Source: a virus
Virus record (IMG/VR): IMGVR_UViG_3300020465_000029
Span: 1 to 50,867 of that record
DNA: 50,867 nucleotides
Reading direction: 5' to 3' (one strand)
This document shows positions 8,717 through 46,007 of the stretch, piece after piece. The notes under the pieces were generated by a model. It was given only the letters and a program-made list of their open reading frames with translations. It was not told the DNA's origin and did no database searches. The stretch's first letter is position 1; each line of letters begins with the position of its first letter. The position numbers and the translations under genes were made by a program.

Positions 8717-11590
8717 CTAAAGTGCTATCGCCATAGCTGTAGCAAAACCTTTTGTTGCTTTTGCATCTAATTGTGTTTGTATTGCTGATGTTACACCATC
8801 AGAGTAATTAAGTTCTGCCGTAGTTGCAGTAACGCCATCCATAATATTAAGTTCAGATGCTGTAGCTGTTACTCCGTCAAGAATGTTAAGTTCTGCCGCA
8901 GTTGAGGTAACTCCATCAAGAATGTTTAACTCTGCTGTTGTAGAAGTAACCCCATCCATTATATTAAGTTCAGATGCTGTTGCCGTAACGCCATCAAGGA
9001 TGTTTAATTCTGCCGTAGTTGCTGTAACGCCATCCATGATATTCAACTCTGACGCTGTGGCTGTTACTCCGTCAAGAATATTTAGCTCTGCCGTTGTAGA
9101 GGTTACACCATCCATAATATTTAATTCAGAAGCAGTAGCTGTTACTCCGTCAAGAATATTTAGTTCTGCTGCAGTTGATGTAACGGCTGTACTGCCTAAT
9201 ACTAAATTACCATCACCAACTGTTATTGTACTATTTGCTATAAATGGTTTATGTACAGTAACATCTGTATCACCACCATCCATAATATCTGTTCCATCTT
9301 CTTCTTGGAAGGTAAAGATTGGTTGTCCATCTTCATCGTCTAATAAGAATGTAACCTTACTACTATCGCCATCCATCGCAAAACATAATTGACCATATAC
9401 ATTAGTAAACATTATGTTTGCTTGACCACCATTTTCTGGTCTAAATACACTTGCCATCACTGTACCAGTGCTTGGATTATATTTAAAATTGCCATCCATT
9501 TCCAAGCCATGATTGCCTGTTCCATCTTGAGCATTTTCAACAAAGGTTATAAGATTATTTTCAGCCGCGCTTTCATTATCAGTTACTAAAACATGAGCAG
9601 CGTTTGTTGCGTCTGTAACTGTTACACCAGCAATTACAGTATTAAGTGCTGTGCCACCAACTGTTATTGCATCAGCTTCTAATGTGCCGTCTATATCTGC
9701 ATCGCCACTAATATCTAAAGAACTAGCTTCTATCTCACCACTCGTTTTAAATATGACATTATCACCACCATCAACTTCAAAGATGATTTGATTATCTGTG
9801 CCAAACTTTATTTGATTATCAGCATCACGACCTACAACAAGACTAGTATTTAAAACAGATTCGATGCCTGTCTGTGCTGCGTTTACAGTAAATGTTAAAT
9901 CATAAGGATCGCCATCTGAACCAGTAGAAGTATCTGTCCAGTTTATATCTAAACCACCACCTTCGACAAATTTAACTTCTTTACCATTGTCTACAGTAAC
10001 TTCTGTTCCGTCTCCGTCTTCAAGGATAAAGTTGCTCATCCCTCCAGAATTAGCATCTACATAAGCCTTGATTGACTGTTGTGACGCAATCGCTGTAGCA
10101 CTGTCACTCGCCATGTTATCTTCGTCTACAAAACTTTTTCCGTCTAAGATGTTAAGCTCTGATGCCGTTGCAGTTACACCATCTAAAATATTTAATTCTG
10201 CTGTAGTTGAAGTAACGCCATCTAGTATATTTAACTCTGCTGTTGTAGAAGTCACCCCATCCATAATATTTAATTCTGATGTGGTCGCTGTAACACCATC
10301 TAATATGTTAAGTTCTGCAGCTGTAGATGTCACACCATCAAGTATGTTTAGTTCTGCTGTAGTTGATGTTACTCCGTCAAGAATATTTAACTCTGTTGTT
10401 GTCGATGTTACCCCATCAAGAATGTTTAGTTCTGATGCAGTAGCTGTCACACCGTCAAGTATGTTCAATTCAGCAGTTGAGGAAGTAACTCCATCAAGAA
10501 TATTTAACTCTGTTGCTGTCGATGTTACAGCAACGTCTTCATTTATTTTTGGAGATGTTAATGTTTTGTTTGTAAGTGTCTGTGTTCCAGAAAGCGTTGT
10601 AACCGTTGAATCAATGGCTACTGTCAATGTATTGCCTGATCCAGAAGTATCAATACCTGTCCCACCAGCTATATCTAATGTTTCGCTATCTAGATCAATT
10701 GATAAAGCACCGCCTGTATCACCTTGAAAATCTAAATCTTGTGCAGTAACCTGACTATCCACATAAGCTTTAATCGACTGTTGTGACGCAATTCCTGTTG
10801 CGCTATTACTTGCCATGTTATCTTCGTCTAAAAAACTTTTTCCATCTAAAATGTTAAGCTCGGCTGCAGTAGATGTCACACCATCTAAAATATTTAGCTC
10901 GGCTGTGGTAGCTGTCACACCGTCAAGTATGTTTAACTCTGTTGTTGAAGAAGTAACTCCGTCAAGAATATTAAGTTCTGTTGCTGTAGCAGTTACACCA
11001 TCTAAGATATTCAATTCAGAAGCTGTAGAAGTCACACCATCTAAAATATTTAATTCAGCAGTTGTAGAGGTTACACCGTCTAAGATATTTAATTCAGCAG
11101 TTGTAGAGGTTACACCGTCTAAGATATTCAATTCAGAAGCTGTAGAAGTTACTCCATCTAAAATGTTTAATTCAGAAGCACTGGCTGTCACACCATCTAA
11201 GATATTAAGCTCTGCAGCTGATGAGGTTACAGCCGTTCCACTTATCATCAACTGGTTACTTGCGTTTAAGAAAACTGCTTTGTCAGCAGGGTATGTCATA
11301 AATATGGTTCTTGTACCAGATGACCAACTGACCTTGCTTCCTGAGTTAGAACTAGCTAAAATTGTGTCTCTTGTTAAGGTGTCTTTTCCAGAACTGTTGT
11401 CGTTAAAAGTTCCAATTCCAACTTCCCAGTTTGTGTTGTCTGTACAGGCGTAATATGTAGTGTCAACACCGTTATTGGTCATGACATCATCAAATTTTAA
11501 AAACCCTGTTACAGCACCTTCCAGTTCAAACGTTGACGTACCTGTGGTGTTCGTGGTTTCTTTTACTCTGTCCTTAACAACTAGAGCCAT
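8717..11590 (-). CDS. Long tail fibre with thirty 13-residue repeats, 957 aa
   Basis: This is the largest gene in the window. Its N-terminal 120 residues (MALVVKDRVKETTNTTGTST and a WSSGTRTIFMTYPADKAVFL segment) form a virion-attachment domain. It then carries three blocks of ten 13-residue repeats with consensus ELNILDGVTSTxx: about residues 121-250, 354-484 and 801-933. The blocks are separated by unique regions; the first and second end in GKSF-DEDNMAS. The C terminus reads NYSDGVTSAIQTQLDAKATKGFATAMAIAL. Such repeats form fibrous shafts. Synonymous codons differ between copies, so the protein repeat is preserved while the DNA has diverged. Confidence 0.86.
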   Translation of the reverse strand: MALVVKDRVKETTNTTGTSTFELEGAVTGFLKFDDVMTNNGVDTTYYACTDNTNWEVGIGTFNDNSSGKDTLTRDTILASSNSGSKVSWSSGTRTIFMTYPADKAVFLNASNQLMISGTAVTSSAAELNILDGVTASASELNILDGVTSTASELNILDGVTSTTAELNILDGVTSTTAELNILDGVTSTASELNILDGVTATATELNILDGVTSSTTELNILDGVTATTAELNILDGVTSTAAELNILDGKSFLDEDNMASNSATGIASQQSIKAYVDSQVTAQDLDFQGDTGGALSIDLDSETLDIAGGTGIDTSGSGNTLTVAIDSTVTTLSGTQTLTNKTLTSPKINEDVAVTSTATELNILDGVTSSTAELNILDGVTATASELNILDGVTSTTTELNILDGVTSTTAELNILDGVTSTAAELNILDGVTATTSELNIMDGVTSTTAELNILDGVTSTTAELNILDGVTATASELNILDGKSFVDEDNMASDSATAIASQQSIKAYVDANSGGMSNFILEDGDGTEVTVDNGKEVKFVEGGGLDINWTDTSTGSDGDPYDLTFTVNAAQTGIESVLNTSLVVGRDADNQIKFGTDNQIIFEVDGGDNVIFKTSGEIEASSLDISGDADIDGTLEADAITVGGTALNTVIAGVTVTDATNAAHVLVTDNESAAENNLITFVENAQDGTGNHGLEMDGNFKYNPSTGTVMASVFRPENGGQANIMFTNVYGQLCFAMDGDSSKVTFLLDDEDGQPIFTFQEEDGTDIMDGGDTDVTVHKPFIANSTITVGDGNLVLGSTAVTSTAAELNILDGVTATASELNIMDGVTSTTAELNILDGVTATASELNIMDGVTATTAELNILDGVTATASELNIMDGVTSTTAELNILDGVTSTAAELNILDGVTATASELNIMDGVTATTAELNYSDGVTSAIQTQLDAKATKGFATAMAIAL
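8790..9190 (-). repeat. Fibre repeat block 3 (ten 39-bp units)
   Basis: Ten tandem 39-bp units encoding (S/A)T(T/A)(A/S)ELNI(L/M)DGVT. Here ELNIMDGVT alternates with ELNILDGVT in most units, unlike the other two blocks, and the last unit is changed to ELNYSDGVT. Confidence 0.85.
10138..10530 (-). repeat. Fibre repeat block 2 (ten 39-bp units)
   Basis: Ten tandem 39-bp units encoding the ELNILDGVT repeat, with one ELNIMDGVT copy. The block ends in LDGKSFVDEDNMAS, matching the end of block 1. Confidence 0.85.
10841..11235 (-). repeat. Fibre repeat block 1 (ten 39-bp units)
   Basis: Ten tandem 39-bp units encoding ELNILDGVT. Two neighbouring units (about 11049-11130) are nearly identical at DNA level, which suggests a recent duplication; the others differ by many synonymous changes. 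Confidence 0.85.
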
Positions 11591-27538: not shown

Positions 27539-27685
27539 TGCCAGTTGTTTATTTATCTAGCTTGGCAAAATTACAGGCTAGCAGGTACTACCTATCCTAT
27601 TGACTGGTCAGTAGGTCTGGTCAGCTAGTTATCCCTCTATATGTATTTATGGCATTTAAGGTATTTTTCTGGGAAATATTACAGT

Positions 27686-28104: not shown

Positions 28105-28334
28105 AAGGAAGGAAGGTATTTTAAGTATGATTTTTTAAGGTTGGCAACCCAGAGCCAGTAGGGCGAACGTCTCACACTCTACTTTAAAACAGACCCAGTT
28201 AGTCAAATTGTGCAGATGGTTCTCCAGAGATGCAACCCATGTCGTGATGACACTAGATGCTTTTCGTAGAGAGGGAGTTTAAGCAGTAACAGTTAACGAT
28301 CCAGACAAGATCATAACAAAAACCATCCAAGTAA

Positions 28335-28385
28335 ACTGTCAGATAGTGTGTGCTATCTCTGATGAGTTCAAAAGAACGAAACAGT
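28335..28385 (+). ncRNA. Hammerhead ribozyme, type III
   Basis: The conserved core is complete: CTGATGA (28359-28365), stem II GTTC-AAAA-GAAC (28366-28377), GAAA (28378-28381). Stem I is closed: AGATAG-TGTGTG-CTATCT (28341-28358). Stem III is open: ACTGT (28335-28339) pairs with ACAGT (28381-28385). The cleavage triplet is GTC, so cleavage is predicted between 28340 and 28341. Every core position of the hammerhead motif (C3, U4, G5, A6, G8, A9, G12, A13, A14, A15.1-U16.1, H17) is present. It lies 23 bases above the first gene of the early operon. Confidence 0.9.
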
Positions 28386-28407
28386 AACCAATAACCAAGG
28401 AGTTCCA

Positions 28408-28689
28408 ATGGAATATACAGTAGATAAATTTATCGCTAAATTTAATGAAGATGAACTTAGCTTGTTGGCAAAGTTAGTTGATGCTTATTGGCTTTGCAAT
28501 AGTGGAGACACTGGCAACAATGGTTTAAGTGCTGACTTAGTTAGCACTGGTTGTAATCCAATTTCACAAGCTATCAAGGCAGTGATCAAAGATGACGAAC
28601 TTTATTGGGAGTGGGTTAATTGTGGCTTAGAGGTGACTTGGGTAGCTAAAGATTATTTTCAAGATGGAACACCAAAAAGGAACTTTTAG
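28408..28689 (+). CDS. First early-operon protein, flanked by ribozymes, 93 aa
   Basis: An acidic protein beginning MEYTVDKFIAKFNEDELSLL, with a CNSGDTGNNGLSADLVSTGC region and an acidic, aromatic C terminus (DDELYWEWVNCGLEVTWVAK). AAGGAG lies 8 bases before the ATG. No known family. It is the only gene between the type III and type I hammerhead ribozymes, so double cleavage would release it as a separate RNA of about 408 nt. Being first in the early operon suggests an early host-takeover or regulatory role (inference). Confidence 0.78.
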   Translation: MEYTVDKFIAKFNEDELSLLAKLVDAYWLCNSGDTGNNGLSADLVSTGCNPISQAIKAVIKDDELYWEWVNCGLEVTWVAKDYFQDGTPKRNF

Positions 28690-28697
28690 TACTTAAT

Positions 28698-28754
28698 TCT
28701 CAACTGACGAGTTCATAAGAACGAAACATGGGGCATCTGCTCCATGTCTTGAGA
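28698..28754 (+). ncRNA. Hammerhead ribozyme, type I
   Basis: Core CTGACGA (28704-28710), stem II GTTC-ATAA-GAAC (28711-28722) and GAAA (28723-28726). Stem III is closed: ACATGGGG (28726-28733) pairs with CTCCATGT (28740-28747) around loop CATCTG, one G-U pair. Stem I is open: TCTCAA (28698-28703) pairs with TTGAGA (28749-28754). The cleavage triplet is GTC; predicted cleavage between 28748 and 28749. The variable position 7 is C instead of U, which the motif allows. The core plus stem II matches the first ribozyme at all but two bases. Confidence 0.9.
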
Positions 28755-29533: not shown

Positions 29534-30643
29534 ATGTCAAATTTTTCAGAGAATTTTACTTCATGCACAATGGAACAAGCAGAGAGACTAACAGTAAGAA
29601 ATGCCTTACTTAATCAGACTACTATGATGCTAGGTGGCTATGGATGGGGAAAAACATCAGTAGGCATCAATCTTAAAAACAATCCACTGTTGAATGCCCA
29701 GTATCCAATTGAACACATTGTCCACTTTGTGCCTTCAGAGTGTGATCTTACTGACAACAAAGGTGCATTAGATACAATAGATGTTAACGGTGTTAAGCTA
29801 ACTAGCTTTTGCCCACCTCAAGAATATTACAAAATTGTTGAGTTAGCCAAGCAAGGCAAAAGATCAATAATCATATGTGATGAAGTCACTGATGCTGATA
29901 CTATCATGCAAGGCATCCAGAGACGTATTGCTAACGAAGGTGTTGTTGGCAATCTTGATCTTAAAGTTGAGTACCAAGGCAAGATCATCAGACCAATTGT
30001 TGTTTTACTTGGCAATAGACCAGAAGATAATTCTGGATACCAAGATGTTCCTAATGCATTGTTTGATAGATGTAATGTTATATTCATCAAGCCAGATGCA
30101 GAGACTACTGCAAACTGGATGGCTGAGAATGGATGCCATCCTTGTCCACTAGCATGGGTTAGAAGTAATCCAAAAGTAGTTAACGAAGGTCAGAACCCAG
30201 ACCACATAGTGTCCATGTCTGGGCGATCTCTGGAAAGAGTGAGTGACCAAGAAAAGATGGGAAATATTCCTGCCGATCTTGAGTTGCCATTGTTCGAGGG
30301 CATCGTAGGCACTGAGTTAGCTGAATCTTATGTGGCATTCAGACGAATATACGAAGGTCTCATTGATAGAAATAAAATCTATGCTGATCCTCTTGGAACT
30401 GAATTGCCTAGTGAAGAGAGACCAGACATTGCATATACACTGGTAACGTCTCTGGGTTATTTCATGGACAAGGACAATGCCACTGCAACTGTCAAGTATG
30501 TCAGAAGGATGAAAAAGACATATGCTCTCTTATGCATTAAGGATGCAACATCTAGAAATCCTAAACTAATGAATAATGCAGAGGTCAGCAACTTTTGCAT
30601 GGATAACTTAGATGTATTCACTAACCTAGGTAAAGGTGAATAA
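29534..30643 (+). CDS. MoxR-type AAA+ ATPase, 369 aa
   Basis: A AAA+ ATPase with Walker A GGYGWGKT (residues 34-41), Walker B IIICDE (112-117), sensor-like VVLLGNRPED (156-165) and LFDRC with a candidate arginine finger (Arg 179). The arrangement matches MoxR/CbbQ ATPases, which remodel partners together with VWA-domain proteins. It is followed by a helical protein and then by a VWA/metallopeptidase protein, the classical MoxR partner. It is placed early in the operon, so it acts early in infection. Target unknown. Confidence 0.82.
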   Translation: MSNFSENFTSCTMEQAERLTVRNALLNQTTMMLGGYGWGKTSVGINLKNNPLLNAQYPIEHIVHFVPSECDLTDNKGALDTIDVNGVKLTSFCPPQEYYKIVELAKQGKRSIIICDEVTDADTIMQGIQRRIANEGVVGNLDLKVEYQGKIIRPIVVLLGNRPEDNSGYQDVPNALFDRCNVIFIKPDAETTANWMAENGCHPCPLAWVRSNPKVVNEGQNPDHIVSMSGRSLERVSDQEKMGNIPADLELPLFEGIVGTELAESYVAFRRIYEGLIDRNKIYADPLGTELPSEERPDIAYTLVTSLGYFMDKDNATATVKYVRRMKKTYALLCIKDATSRNPKLMNNAEVSNFCMDNLDVFTNLGKGE

Positions 30644-30646
30644 CTT

Positions 30647-30672
30647 ATCACTAGGGGGGCAGTGATGCCCCT
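30647..30672 (+). promoter_or_regulatory. Alternative-hairpin element after the MoxR ATPase gene
   Basis: ATCACT (30647-30652) can pair with AGTGAT (30661-30666), and the loop's GGGGC (30656-30660) can pair with GCCCC (30667-30671). The two helices exclude each other, as in a switch or attenuator. No T tract follows. Confidence 0.4.
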
Positions 30673-30682
30673 CATTTACAAT

Positions 30683-30695
30683 CAAGAATTTATTT
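30683..30695. promoter_or_regulatory. Degenerate operator-like site O4
   Basis: CAAGAATTTATTT, a left half-site of the O1-O3 palindrome. It is flanked by TTTACAAT and lies 30 bases above the gene at 30725. A TGACCAGTCA site (30701-30710) lies next to it. Confidence 0.4.
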
Positions 30696-30724
30696 ACAAT
30701 TGACCAGTCAATAAGGAGACTATT

Positions 30725-31627
30725 ATGGATAAAAATATTAATAAGCAAACTATGTTGCAACAAACTACGATCATCTGCAACTTCAGAGCAAAGTACGGTG
30801 GCTCTGGTCATTTTTTTGACAAGGCACACAATGCTAAATGGTGCAAGGCAAATGGCATCAGTGTTGAGAATAGCGAGAAACTTTCCAGAACAACTTTTGC
30901 AAAGTTTGGAGTTACTGGGCAAACTATGTTTGATGCTATCCAGTCGCATTACAAAAAAGCTTTAGCAACCCATAATTCATACTTGCTTTGCAAAATGGGT
31001 GATGCTCAGTATGGCGATGGCATCATGGCAAAAGAATCCCTCATCCCACATGCTGAGAGGATGGAAGAGATGGAGACCAAGTTTATTGAACTGGTTACAA
31101 ACTTTCTTAATGCATACGAGCAGATCAAGAAGGATGCAATATTTCTCTACGGTAACAAAGTCTCTGAGAGTATGTATCCATCAGTTGACGAGATGCGAGG
31201 GAAGTTTGCATGGAACATTGAGAGGTCATCATTACCAGAGACCAATTCAGTCAGCAATTTGTCTTCAGAATGGGAACAAGAAATTATTAACTCTACTGAG
31301 AAAAGATTAACTGAAGTATTTGATAGTGCAGTTAACAATCTGGTCTCTAAGTTAAAAGAGTGTGTTTCTAATATCAATAAGCAGACTAAGACCAGAGGTG
31401 GCATCAATGCTGACACGTTCAATAACTTTGCCAGTCTGTTAGAGAGTGTTCCACAACTGAACATTTCTAAATGTCCTAAAATCGCTAAAGTTTGCGAGGA
31501 TGCAATTAACCTTTTCAAGTATGCTCCAGAGTCAACTAATGACGATGCAGTAAAACAAGACCTTGAAGATAAATCTCAAACAATACTTAATGACCTAGAG
31601 TTGCTAGGCATTGGTTCTGAAATATAA
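30725..31627 (+). CDS. Helical protein of the MoxR/VWA module, 300 aa
   Basis: Almost entirely alpha-helical with no signal peptide or membrane segment: FRAKYGGSGHFFDKAHNAKW (residues 20-39), then a long helical middle (MEEMETKFIELVTNFLNAYE) and ESVPQLNISKCPKIAKVCED. Not recognised. It sits between the AAA+ ATPase and VWA genes with short gaps (81 and 9 bases), so it is probably a third component or the substrate of that pair, as in other three-gene MoxR-VWA systems (inference). Confidence 0.72.
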   Translation: MDKNINKQTMLQQTTIICNFRAKYGGSGHFFDKAHNAKWCKANGISVENSEKLSRTTFAKFGVTGQTMFDAIQSHYKKALATHNSYLLCKMGDAQYGDGIMAKESLIPHAERMEEMETKFIELVTNFLNAYEQIKKDAIFLYGNKVSESMYPSVDEMRGKFAWNIERSSLPETNSVSNLSSEWEQEIINSTEKRLTEVFDSAVNNLVSKLKECVSNINKQTKTRGGINADTFNNFASLLESVPQLNISKCPKIAKVCEDAINLFKYAPESTNDDAVKQDLEDKSQTILNDLELLGIGSEI

Positions 31628-31636
31628 GGAGACGAT

Positions 31637-33079
31637 ATGATAGACGTTAATAACAGAATATCCCCAGAGGATAAAATAGAGAACAGTAAGGCATACTTAC
31701 TGTTCAACCTTCCTATGTACGGTTTGCCAGTCAATAGGCTAGTCTGGAAAATAGATAACTCAATTTCGACTGCTTGCACTGACGGTAAGCACATTTACTG
31801 GAATGAGAAATTTTTTGATAGTCTTTTCAAGCCAGAGTCTACTGGAGTTTCAATGCATGAGGTGTTGCACGTTATTTTTGAACATCCATCACAATTGGCT
31901 AGGTTCTTAAAAAAATATCCTCAGTATAGTACACCGTTCTATAATCAGTTTATGCAGATGAGCATGGACTTTGAAATTAACTTTATAATTTTTGATATGA
32001 AATCAAAGTTTATAAAATTACCAGATGGTGCATGCTTTGACGAGCAATACAGAGGTATGGTCTGGCAAGAAATATTCTTTAAATTAATTAAGGATGTTAC
32101 TCCACCAAAAGATGAAGAGCCAGACGAGATAGTGAACACTGGTGGCTCTGGAACTTGCGAAGGTGACGGTGATCAGCAATCTGACGTAGGCAACCACGAA
32201 GTTGATGACCAAGGCACTTCAGAAGGTGGTGATGGCGATGACCAAGATGGTTCTGGAGATGACCAAGAAGGTGGTTCTGGTAATCAGCAATCAAACGATG
32301 ACCAGTCTTCTTCAGGCGATACGGGTTCACCATCTGGTGCTGACCAGTCAGTAGACACTGGTGGTTGTGGTGGTGTTATTGTTCCTAAGAACGATGACGG
32401 CTCTGATCTAAGCGAGCCACAATTAGAGCAGATGGAAAAAGAAACCAGAATAATGGTTAGGAACTCAATTCAACTTGCCAAGAAAAAAGGCAACGACATT
32501 CCTTCCCAAGTAATGGATGCTTTTAACGAAAATAGAAAAGCAAAAGTTGACTGGTTGTCAGTATTGAGAAAGCATACTGCCCCTATCTTTAGGAGCGATC
32601 AAACTTACTCAAAGCTTAATAAAAGACTAAGACCATTAGGCTATAAAATGCCATCTTATAAAAAAGACGGTACTGGTGAGATTGTTATATGCAACGATAC
32701 ATCTGGCTCAATGACTGCTAATGAGGTGGAGCAGAGCAACACTGAGACCTATAAAATTGTATCCAAGGTCAAGCCTAAGAAAGTTACTATTCATTATTTT
32801 CATACCAGTGTGTGGTGTACACAGACTTATAAGACTGGTGAGAAATTTAAAATGCCTAGTCATTTTGAAACTGGTGGTACTGACTTTCAAGCTTTCATGG
32901 ATAAGGTTAACGAGCAGAATGCCAAGCCTAAAGTTATGATTGTCTTTACAGATATGTATGACAGATATCCACCCAAGCCGTCATTTCCAGTTATCTGGAT
33001 ATCGACAACTAAAGATAGAGTTGCACCATATGGTAAGACTATCTATCTTGATCCATCTGAATTAAAGGGAGTGGCATAA
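31637..33079 (+). CDS. VWA-like protein with HExxH metallopeptidase domain (DUF2201-like), 480 aa
   Basis: The N-terminal domain has a zinc-peptidase motif HEVLH (residues 74-78). A long linker of Asp, Gly, Ser and Gln follows (about residues 160-265). The C-terminal VWA domain has the MIDAS motif DTSGS (354-358), a threonine in TGGTD (near 415) and an Asp in FTDMYD (439). This layout matches DUF2201/CobT-like proteins that work with MoxR ATPases. The linker carries one exact (32341) and one near (32299) TGACCAGTCA site. It may be a metal-dependent protease or chaperone partner. Confidence 0.82.
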   Translation: MIDVNNRISPEDKIENSKAYLLFNLPMYGLPVNRLVWKIDNSISTACTDGKHIYWNEKFFDSLFKPESTGVSMHEVLHVIFEHPSQLARFLKKYPQYSTPFYNQFMQMSMDFEINFIIFDMKSKFIKLPDGACFDEQYRGMVWQEIFFKLIKDVTPPKDEEPDEIVNTGGSGTCEGDGDQQSDVGNHEVDDQGTSEGGDGDDQDGSGDDQEGGSGNQQSNDDQSSSGDTGSPSGADQSVDTGGCGGVIVPKNDDGSDLSEPQLEQMEKETRIMVRNSIQLAKKKGNDIPSQVMDAFNENRKAKVDWLSVLRKHTAPIFRSDQTYSKLNKRLRPLGYKMPSYKKDGTGEIVICNDTSGSMTANEVEQSNTETYKIVSKVKPKKVTIHYFHTSVWCTQTYKTGEKFKMPSHFETGGTDFQAFMDKVNEQNAKPKVMIVFTDMYDRYPPKPSFPVIWISTTKDRVAPYGKTIYLDPSELKGVA

Positions 33080-33088
33080 GCCACTCTC
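33067..33088 (+). promoter_or_regulatory. Hairpin across the VWA stop codon
   Basis: GGGAGTGGC/GCCACTCTC (33067-33088, nine pairs with one G-U pair) with the TAA stop in the ATAA loop. No T tract, so it is more likely an mRNA-stability or processing element than a terminator. Confidence 0.45.
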
Positions 33089-33112
33089 TAACTTATCACT
33101 AAGGAGAAATAT

Positions 33113-34958: not shown

Positions 34959-34963
34959 ACAAT

Positions 34964-36924: not shown

Positions 36925-37362
36925 ATGTTATTAGAAACGGCAACGGCTTTAACGTGCTTGGCACACACCATATTCTGGGAAAGTCGATCTGAGAGTCTGG
37001 TGGCTCAAATCGCAGTCGCACATGTGGTTATGAACAGAGTTAATGATTACAGATTTCCAAATACAGTATGTGGTGTTGTTACTGATGGGTTGAGGTATAA
37101 GTGGAACAATCAAATGGTAAAGCATAAATGTGCATTTAGTTATTATTGCGATGGCAAGCCAGAAGATGTTAGCATTGATCCTAAAGCTTATGACTGGTCA
37201 GAAACAATTGCTTTAGCAGTATTAGATGGCACATTTAATGTTGATGTAACAGAAGGTGCTACACATTACCATGCAGATTATGTTTATCCAACATGGGCAA
37301 GCACCATGACGATGACAGTTTGCATTGACACACATTGTTTTTATAGATGGGAGATGGATTGA
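36925..37362 (+). CDS. SleB-like cell-wall hydrolase (endolysin-type), 145 aa
   Basis: The pattern matches SleB/Hydrolase_2 peptidoglycan lytic enzymes: HTIFWESRSES with a likely catalytic Glu 19, AHVVMNRV (residues 32-39), CAFSYYCDGKP (69-79), THYHADYVYPTW (113-124) and HCFYRW (137-142). These enzymes cut glycan strands of the wall. No signal peptide is evident, so it would need a holin. It is encoded in the early operon, not beside the holins, which have their own GH24 lysozyme. Confidence 0.82.
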   Translation: MLLETATALTCLAHTIFWESRSESLVAQIAVAHVVMNRVNDYRFPNTVCGVVTDGLRYKWNNQMVKHKCAFSYYCDGKPEDVSIDPKAYDWSETIALAVLDGTFNVDVTEGATHYHADYVYPTWASTMTMTVCIDTHCFYRWEMD

Positions 37363-38686: not shown

Positions 38687-38892
38687 GAAAGTATCAGTAT
38701 TTTTCTGGAAGAAAACAAGACTTCACATTCTGGTCAAGTAATATGACCAGTCAAAAGGAAGAGCATCCCCAACCGAAGGGGCAGAAAGAAAGTTTGGACA
38801 AACTTTCGAGTACGGTGTTCGGACAAGGATTAGTTGGCGAGTGCCTTGAACATGAAAAACCCCAACAAGCCATAGACCCTTTTTTTAGTTAG
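38683..38892 (+). CDS. Last gene of early operon, 69 aa
   Basis: The ATG overlaps the previous TGA. MRKYQYFSGRKQDFTFWSSN, then MTSQKEEHPQPKGQKESLDK. It carries the TGACCAGTCA site 38744-38753 in a Thr-Ser-Gln frame. Low complexity and unrecognised. The early operon ends after it. Confidence 0.5.
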   Translation: MRKYQYFSGRKQDFTFWSSNMTSQKEEHPQPKGQKESLDKLSSTVFGQGLVGECLEHEKPQQAIDPFFS

Positions 38893-44461: not shown

Positions 44462-45412
44462 ATGTTACTTTTCAACATGGGTTTAAAAGGACTGGAAAAT
44501 TTTTCTATACCAATTCAGAACGCCTTGACTAATGATAGTTATGATGGTGGTTCTATGACGGATATATCTGTAACAGGACTAATTGACTCTGCTAGAATAA
44601 AACAACTTAGACAACTGCATTATACTTCTATAGAAGAAGATGCAAGCAGAAGAATTAATGCACTGATAGGAACTGCATTTCATAATTTAGCTGAAGAACA
44701 TTCACCTGATGATTGGATTACAGAAGAAAGATTTTATGCTGAAGTAAACGGAAAAATTATTTCTGGTCAAATAGATGCAGTTATACCAATCCCTTTAAAA
44801 CAAGCCAAAAAAATTAACCCAAACGTGGGCGAAAAACCAGTAATGATTAGAGACTACAAAGTTATTACTGCCTTTAAGGCTCAGTCTGGTATGAAAGATT
44901 ATGAAAGACAGGGCAACCTGTATTCATATTTATTACAGAGCAACGGCTTTTCTCCTATATCATTTGTTATTGAAGCTTATATAAAAGACTGGAAAGAGTC
45001 TTTTGCTTTAAGAGATGAGAATTATCCCCAGTTACCAATACAGGATTACGAATATGCACTTTGGTCTTTTGACCAGTCAGAGGAATACATTAAGAAGCGA
45101 CTTGAGCTTCACTTTCCAGAAGACGAGTTTTACATACCTAAATGTTCAGATGAAGAAATGTGGTCTACTGATGCTAAATGGGAGGCAAAAAAGAAAGGTC
45201 ATACAAAAGCGACAAAGTTGTTTAACAGTGAAAGGGAAGCATTAAATTGGATTGCTGATCAAGATCACAGAACAACCAGAGGAACAACATTTGAAGATTG
45301 GGATATTAAACAAAGACCAGTTGAAAGAAGAAGATGCGAAGGAAACTGGTGCAATGTGGCAGAACATTGCGATCAATTTGCACAATATAAGGAGTCATTA
45401 AATGGAAATTGA
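44462..45412 (+). CDS. PD-(D/E)XK exonuclease (Cas4/RecB-like), 316 aa
   Basis: The nuclease core is GQIDAVIP (Asp near residue 104) followed by MIRDYKVITAF (the D.K pair, about residues 129-139), a helix KDYERQGNLYSYLL, and a C-terminal Cys cluster RRCEGNWCNVAEHC, similar to the iron-sulfur or zinc site of Cas4/AddB-like nucleases but with only three Cys. Followed by an ERF annealing protein and SSB, so it is the 5'-3' exonuclease of a phage recombination set. Start uncertain; Met 7 is another option. No Shine-Dalgarno. Confidence 0.83.
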   Translation: MLLFNMGLKGLENFSIPIQNALTNDSYDGGSMTDISVTGLIDSARIKQLRQLHYTSIEEDASRRINALIGTAFHNLAEEHSPDDWITEERFYAEVNGKIISGQIDAVIPIPLKQAKKINPNVGEKPVMIRDYKVITAFKAQSGMKDYERQGNLYSYLLQSNGFSPISFVIEAYIKDWKESFALRDENYPQLPIQDYEYALWSFDQSEEYIKKRLELHFPEDEFYIPKCSDEEMWSTDAKWEAKKKGHTKATKLFNSEREALNWIADQDHRTTRGTTFEDWDIKQRPVERRRCEGNWCNVAEHCDQFAQYKESLNGN

Positions 45413-46007
45413 AAGTCATAACATAATGTTTTCGACAACAGAACTAGACAAATTACTTGGTGCTTTAGCAAAGGCACAGGGTGAATTTGATATACCAAAA
45501 AAATCTCATGATGGGTATCACGGAAAATATGCCAACCTTCAAGATTTAAAAAATGCAACACAAAAGCAGTTAGCCAGCAACGGATTGTCAATCACACAGT
45601 CTCATGACCAGTCAACAATAAAATCTATGCTGGGTCACGCTTCAGGACAACACATTGTCTACATAACCAAGTATAAGGACAACCCTTCAGATAAGTTTAA
45701 ACAAGCATCAGCATGGACTTTTATGAGAAGATATGCAATCATGGCTATACTCAATGTGTCTGGAGATGAAGACCCAGAAAGTTATGGCGAAGTATCGTTT
45801 ACTCCAGATGACGGACTAAGTGAAGCATCACAAGCTATTTTAGATGGTGGTTTAAAAACTAAAAAAGTTGAAGAATTTAATCAATACTACGGTGCAAATC
45901 AATTTAAACTTAAAAGACTTGAAAAAGATGACAATGAAGAATATAAGTTTATTGAAAAGCATTTTAAAATACACAAAGATTCATTGAAAGGAAAGAAAAA
46001 CAAATGA
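45402..46007 (+). CDS. erf: ERF-family single-strand annealing protein, 201 aa
   Basis: The pattern LDKLLGALAKAQGEFDIPKK, YHGKYANLQDLKNATQKQLA and GLSITQSH, then MLGHASGQHIVYITKYK and SAWTFMRRYAIMAILNVSGD with EDPES matches ERF recombinases, which anneal complementary single strands in phage recombination. The C-terminal region is helical and basic. It overlaps the exonuclease by 11 bases, and SSB follows with a 4-base overlap. Two-gene exonuclease-annealer pairs are a standard phage design. Confidence 0.86.
   Translation: MEIESHNIMFSTTELDKLLGALAKAQGEFDIPKKSHDGYHGKYANLQDLKNATQKQLASNGLSITQSHDQSTIKSMLGHASGQHIVYITKYKDNPSDKFKQASAWTFMRRYAIMAILNVSGDEDPESYGEVSFTPDDGLSEASQAILDGGLKTKKVEEFNQYYGANQFKLKRLEKDDNEEYKFIEKHFKIHKDSLKGKKNK

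Follow-up and report, generated by a model that had tools for sequence, protein, structure and literature searches.

The window considered here, meaning the whole stretch of DNA analyzed, is one virus contig from IMG/VR, 50,867 bases long. Structural genes occupy its left half on the minus strand, and a plus-strand group of mostly unknown genes includes three closely packed reading frames, each with an AAGGAG-type ribosome site ahead of it. These encode an ATPase (29534–30643, 369 aa), a helical middle protein (30725–31627, 300 aa), and a metallopeptidase-VWA protein (31637–33079, 480 aa). All three reading frames are real and intact, in agreement with the original prediction of a three-gene module at this position. 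The trio does not adjoin replication genes in the window, which encodes no family A DNA polymerase, and the neighboring genes are uninformative about what the trio might act on.

Ribozymes had been predicted upstream of the module, and the two hammerhead-like ones there look real. They flank a 93-aa reading frame on the plus strand, and the catalytic-core letters are intact in each. The first is a type III hammerhead at 28333–28387 (E=1.3e-5, core CUGAUGA/GAAA) and the second a weaker match at 28681–28754 (E about 0.04, core CUGACGA/GAAA), both below the Rfam gathering score. The predicted intercistronic hairpins are likewise present on the plus strand, one at 30654–30673 (8-bp stem, 4-nt loop, z −1.98, no T tract) and one across the VWA stop codon at 33066–33089 (10-bp stem, 4-nt loop, z −3.65), which also has no T tract on that strand. 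The operator-like site placed inside the module, however, is at chance level: the palindrome-like site at 30682 has 3 mismatches, and about 13 such matches are expected by chance in the window, whereas good copies of the palindrome CAAGAAWTTCTTG lie at 27685, 27800, and 28007, upstream of the plus-strand genes. These three are exact copies of the repeated palindrome TCAAGAAWTTCTTGK, and a copy with a single mismatch lies at 34963. The claims of joint regulation and of early expression are both weak, joint regulation being no more than plausible; promoter-like sites are no commoner in the sequence than in shuffles.

Components of the trio

In a single-sequence PHROGs search, the ATPase matches phrog_1297 (E=5e-37); the same single sequence has no Pfam match. 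The profile of the ATPase and its relatives matches midasin best (1.7e-17), with CbbQ-type MoxR proteins lower and 2r44 also found. Alignment places a Walker A motif at GGYGWGKT (G37, K40), Walker B at CDE (D116, E117), sensor-1 at N161, the Arg finger at R179, and sensor-2 at R231, and each of these residues is invariant among the window ATPase and 7 phage relatives. Because the catalytic positions are invariant and in the family arrangement, and because the profile matches midasin and then CbbQ-type MoxR proteins, the ATPase is by its sequence a MoxR/midasin-type AAA+ protein of phrog_1297, as its original MoxR-type assignment implied.

The metallopeptidase-VWA protein matches PF13203 (DUF2201_N; E=2.4e-20, 73.7 bits against a gathering cut-off of 23.2), PF09967 (DUF2201; E=2e-18, 67.2 bits, cut-off 26.4), and phrog_1314 (E=8e-75). 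Its zincin-like DUF2201_N domain aligns HEVLH at residues 74–78 together with H83 and D111, and its MIDAS is complete (D354, S356, S358, T415, and D439, with DTSGS starting at 354). The linker, about residues 158–243, is low-complexity and rich in Gly, Ser, Asp, and Gln; it holds 25 D/E versus 1 K/R within 86 residues and is predicted to be disordered (pLDDT 30–37). The anticipated architecture, an HExxH domain joined to a MIDAS domain by an acidic linker, is thereby borne out. A fold search with the model of this protein returns mostly VWA folds at weak E values, a weak zincin match (selecase), and the VWA of NorD among the structural neighbors.

The MIDAS residues are invariant among the VWA relatives aligned, but the zincin motif is not. 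In the VWA proteins of the Variovorax trios (L013 and L027), HExxH is gone (ATVLH) and the MIDAS is complete, which suggests that the zincin domain is non-catalytic there; in the relative from phage Littlefix, Leu replaces the catalytic Glu of HExxH, again with a complete MIDAS. Because some relatives are without the catalytic Glu, peptidase activity cannot be assumed for the window protein.

The name given to phrog_1314, "HNH endonuclease," was rejected for the window protein, whose matches are to DUF2201 metallopeptidase-VWA domains, with none to an HNH family. The same name is attached to the N4 gp25 family, also metallopeptidase-VWA proteins, in PHROGs and in many RefSeq phage records, where it is probably a propagated misannotation.

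The middle protein had been described as an unrecognized helical protein. It is helical, but it can be recognized, with profile comparison, Foldseek, and the annotation of a cyanophage homolog all pointing to DUF3150. As a single sequence it scores 14.0 bits against DUF3150 (PF11348), below the gathering cut-off of 24.9, and single-sequence scores across the middle family stay under the cut-off (best E values, 0.033 and 0.0091); because of these scores, it is not assigned to PF11348 here. When the middle family is compared with DUF3150 in hhalign, P is 2.5e-6 (probability 88.8), as against P of 0.07–0.93 for reversed, column-shuffled, and unrelated controls, and the homology is confined to about 145 N-terminal columns, that is, to the N-terminal half. 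Confidence in the structure model is moderate (pLDDT 67). Its best viral match in Foldseek is an uncultured-phage protein annotated as "DUF3150 domain-containing protein" (E 1.4e-9, TM 0.63), and a search of PDB folds gives no significant match. Profile comparison and fold search together thus indicate that the middle protein is a remote homolog of the DUF3150 superfamily. In the Pfam and PADLOC scans it gave no match to VMAP, the third component of the ternary conflict systems (PMC7159879). Matches to CRISPR Csm2 and Cas11 (PADLOC, NCBIfam) were rejected as weak chance matches between helical proteins.

Recurrence in phages and plasmids

Searches for related loci with single window proteins as queries found nothing, and tblastn with the window's middle protein gave no match among cultured phages. 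Relatives of the middle protein were reached only through plasmids and IMG/VR loci, and phages of the MinM2 type were found afterwards. In tblastn against plasmids, the middle protein finds Burkholderia counterparts at E about 1e-10; the Variovorax protein appears only at E 0.6. A profile search with the middle family reaches 14 contigs, seven of them viral and seven from genomes. At every middle-protein locus uncut by a contig end (L010–L013, L014–L017, L020, and L021–L027), which together cover viral or phage loci and plasmids or genomes of Burkholderia, Paraburkholderia, and Variovorax, both the ATPase and the VWA protein are encoded. This association is not built into the sample, because the loci were selected through the middle protein alone, and the expectation that the three genes would co-occur in relatives is upheld. 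Gene order differs among the loci, with the middle gene second, first, or last (ATPase-middle-VWA, middle-ATPase-VWA, and ATPase-VWA-middle). The converse fails, in that many phages carry the ATPase-VWA pair without a middle protein of the window type. In the VWA tree, which has a weak root, the window sits on a long branch, and 4 changes would be needed to account for trio and pair.

Among the closest counterparts are Synechococcus phage MinM2 (OQ594354), a cultured cyanophage, and Planktothrix phage Pag-Yong1 (OL906435), which have the trio in the same order. They differ from the window in that one small reading frame lies between the ATPase and DUF3150 genes and three precede the VWA gene, and their middle protein is about 15% identical to that of the window. 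In MinM2 the middle homolog is annotated as DUF3150 and is flanked by genes for a "MoxR family ATPase" and a "VWA-like" protein; our own scan of it gave no PF11348 match. The trio of Burkholderia, Paraburkholderia, and Variovorax plasmids (ATPase-hypothetical-VWA-like) has the families and order seen in the window but is plasmid-borne and, in Burkholderia, adjoins VirB-type T4SS genes.

Among plasmids, 1,168 records carry DUF3150 genes, and 978 of these records are typed as conjugative. In each of five plasmids read in detail, the DUF3150 gene is accompanied by a gene for a MoxR/AAA ATPase and one for a VWA protein, and in most of the five RecT/Bet, exonuclease, ssb, or tra genes are nearby. 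The two plasmid VWA proteins that were translated both have HExxH near the N-terminus and a low-complexity linker of considerable length. The set in IncC and related plasmids parallels the window in having an AAA+ protein, a DUF3150 protein remotely homologous to the window's middle protein, and an HExxH-linker-VWA protein. It differs in that the ATPase (AAA_5 and CbbQ_C) and the VWA protein (CobT-like) belong to other branches and in that, in IncC, ssb-bet-exo separates the ATPase from the rest of the trio. Genes for MoxR and VWA proteins are also included in ORF100–103 of pCAR1, which are conserved in R478, Rts1, SXT, and R391 (PMC2642839, 2009).

The sister plasmid trio's CbbQ-type and CobT-like signatures, together with the NorD neighbor of the VWA model, could suggest a complex for metal or cofactor insertion, as in CobS-CobT or NorQ-NorD. 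We consider this very improbable; no gene for a chelatase large subunit or metalloenzyme partner was noticed beside the trio in the loci read.

Other phages have a pair rather than a trio. In Schitoviridae, N4 gp24 and gp25 are, like the window proteins, an ATPase of phrog_1297 and a VWA-metallopeptidase of phrog_1314, but the small reading frame that separates them shares no homology with the window's middle protein; neither alignment nor hhalign (0.11) detects homology between these small N4-like proteins and the middle protein. Both gp24 and gp25 are middle genes, and the pair is core in 25 of the 25 N4-like phages compared (PMC4193335), so that the core gene set of N4-like viruses holds the two-component version. 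The group 2.2 jumbo phages resemble the window in having MoxR and a vWA protein fused to an N-terminal metallopeptidase, but the pair is described without a third component, and a role in the virion is proposed (PMC7824862).

A virion assembly chaperone with a maturation peptidase would accord with that proposal, with the archaeal virus tail precedent cited in its support (PMC7824862), and with the position of gp24/gp25 near structural genes in roseophage RPP1 (PMC4193335). Conjugative plasmids with the same trio, however, make no virion, and in the window the structural genes lie elsewhere and on the opposite strand, which leaves this reading a distinctly unlikely one.

A literature search for DUF3150 found no paper, and none was found in the literature searched that treats the trio as a single three-part system. 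The window trio is one more instance of a gene set already in the databases, and we are highly confident that the three-part module itself is real.

Candidate targets of the module

The MoxR-VWA pairs RavA-ViaA and NorQ-NorD, like midasin, are chaperone-like; some of these are reviewed in PMC7159879. MoxR-VWA pairs are widespread, and targets are known for few. The trio is best explained as a three-component remodeling module of the MoxR type carried on mobile elements. The ATPase would form an AAA+ ring, as its family suggests, and the VWA protein, by comparison with RavA-ViaA, NorQ-NorD, and midasin, would use its MIDAS and long acidic tether to dock both on this ring and on the target. The DUF3150-like protein would be a dedicated third subunit, most likely presenting the target as an adaptor or scaffold, and the zincin domain would probably trim or clamp that target. 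The target would most likely belong to the element itself, as its DNA-processing complex or early nucleoprotein complex, in replication, recombination, or post-entry establishment.

We lean slightly toward this explanation taken as a whole. The choice of a DNA-processing or establishment complex as target is more tentative and falls somewhat short of probable. It is favored because plasmids build no virion and because DNA polymerase, helicase, and recombination genes are frequent neighbors, with phage copies often lying upstream of a gene for DNA polymerase, for a helicase, or for primase; gene neighborhood is weak evidence as a pointer to the target.

The original prediction had instead proposed that the module inactivates or matures a host complex early in infection. 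Such a role is not specifically supported, as the trio is also found in plasmids and its neighbors are frequently replication or recombination genes. A phage-only function in host shut-off is argued against because conjugative plasmids carry the same three-part arrangement. A rival along the general lines of that prediction is counter-defense or host takeover, in which the trio would remodel, clip, or extract a host complex, such as a restriction or defense assembly, at entry. Its presence in both phages and conjugative plasmids fits this idea, since anti-defense genes are often common to the two, and zincin domains are known in other anti-restriction proteins of mobile elements. Typical counter-defense genes are patchy, however, whereas the trio lies in large conserved plasmid backbones and all of the N4-like phages compared have the ATPase-VWA pair among their core genes (PMC4193335). 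PADLOC matches are only weak and unrelated. We regard counter-defense as unlikely, though the most credible of the rivals.

Presence in phages and conjugative plasmids alike suggests a step common to phage and plasmid life, and a form with its own third subunit, found in both, offers a tractable route to what these machines remodel. The chances are about even that tailed phages and conjugative plasmids have in common a ternary MoxR-VWA-zincin machine in which the DUF3150-like protein is indispensable as third subunit. Such a machine would exist in two parallel versions, one of phrog_1297/DUF2201 type and one of CbbQ/CobT-like type, whose other two subunits have been exchanged or have diverged.

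Other features of the window

The plus-strand group that contains the trio also encodes a cell-wall hydrolase at 36925–37362 (Hydrolase_2, 7.5e-22). An ERF-family annealing protein (1.4e-7) is encoded at 45402–46007, outside the gene group of the trio. A Proteo-phage-1 RNA lies on the plus strand at 38767–38870 and scores 45.9 bits against a gathering score of 42. On the minus strand, among presumed tail genes, a 957-aa protein (8717–11590) contains many tandem repeats of the ELNILDGVT type.
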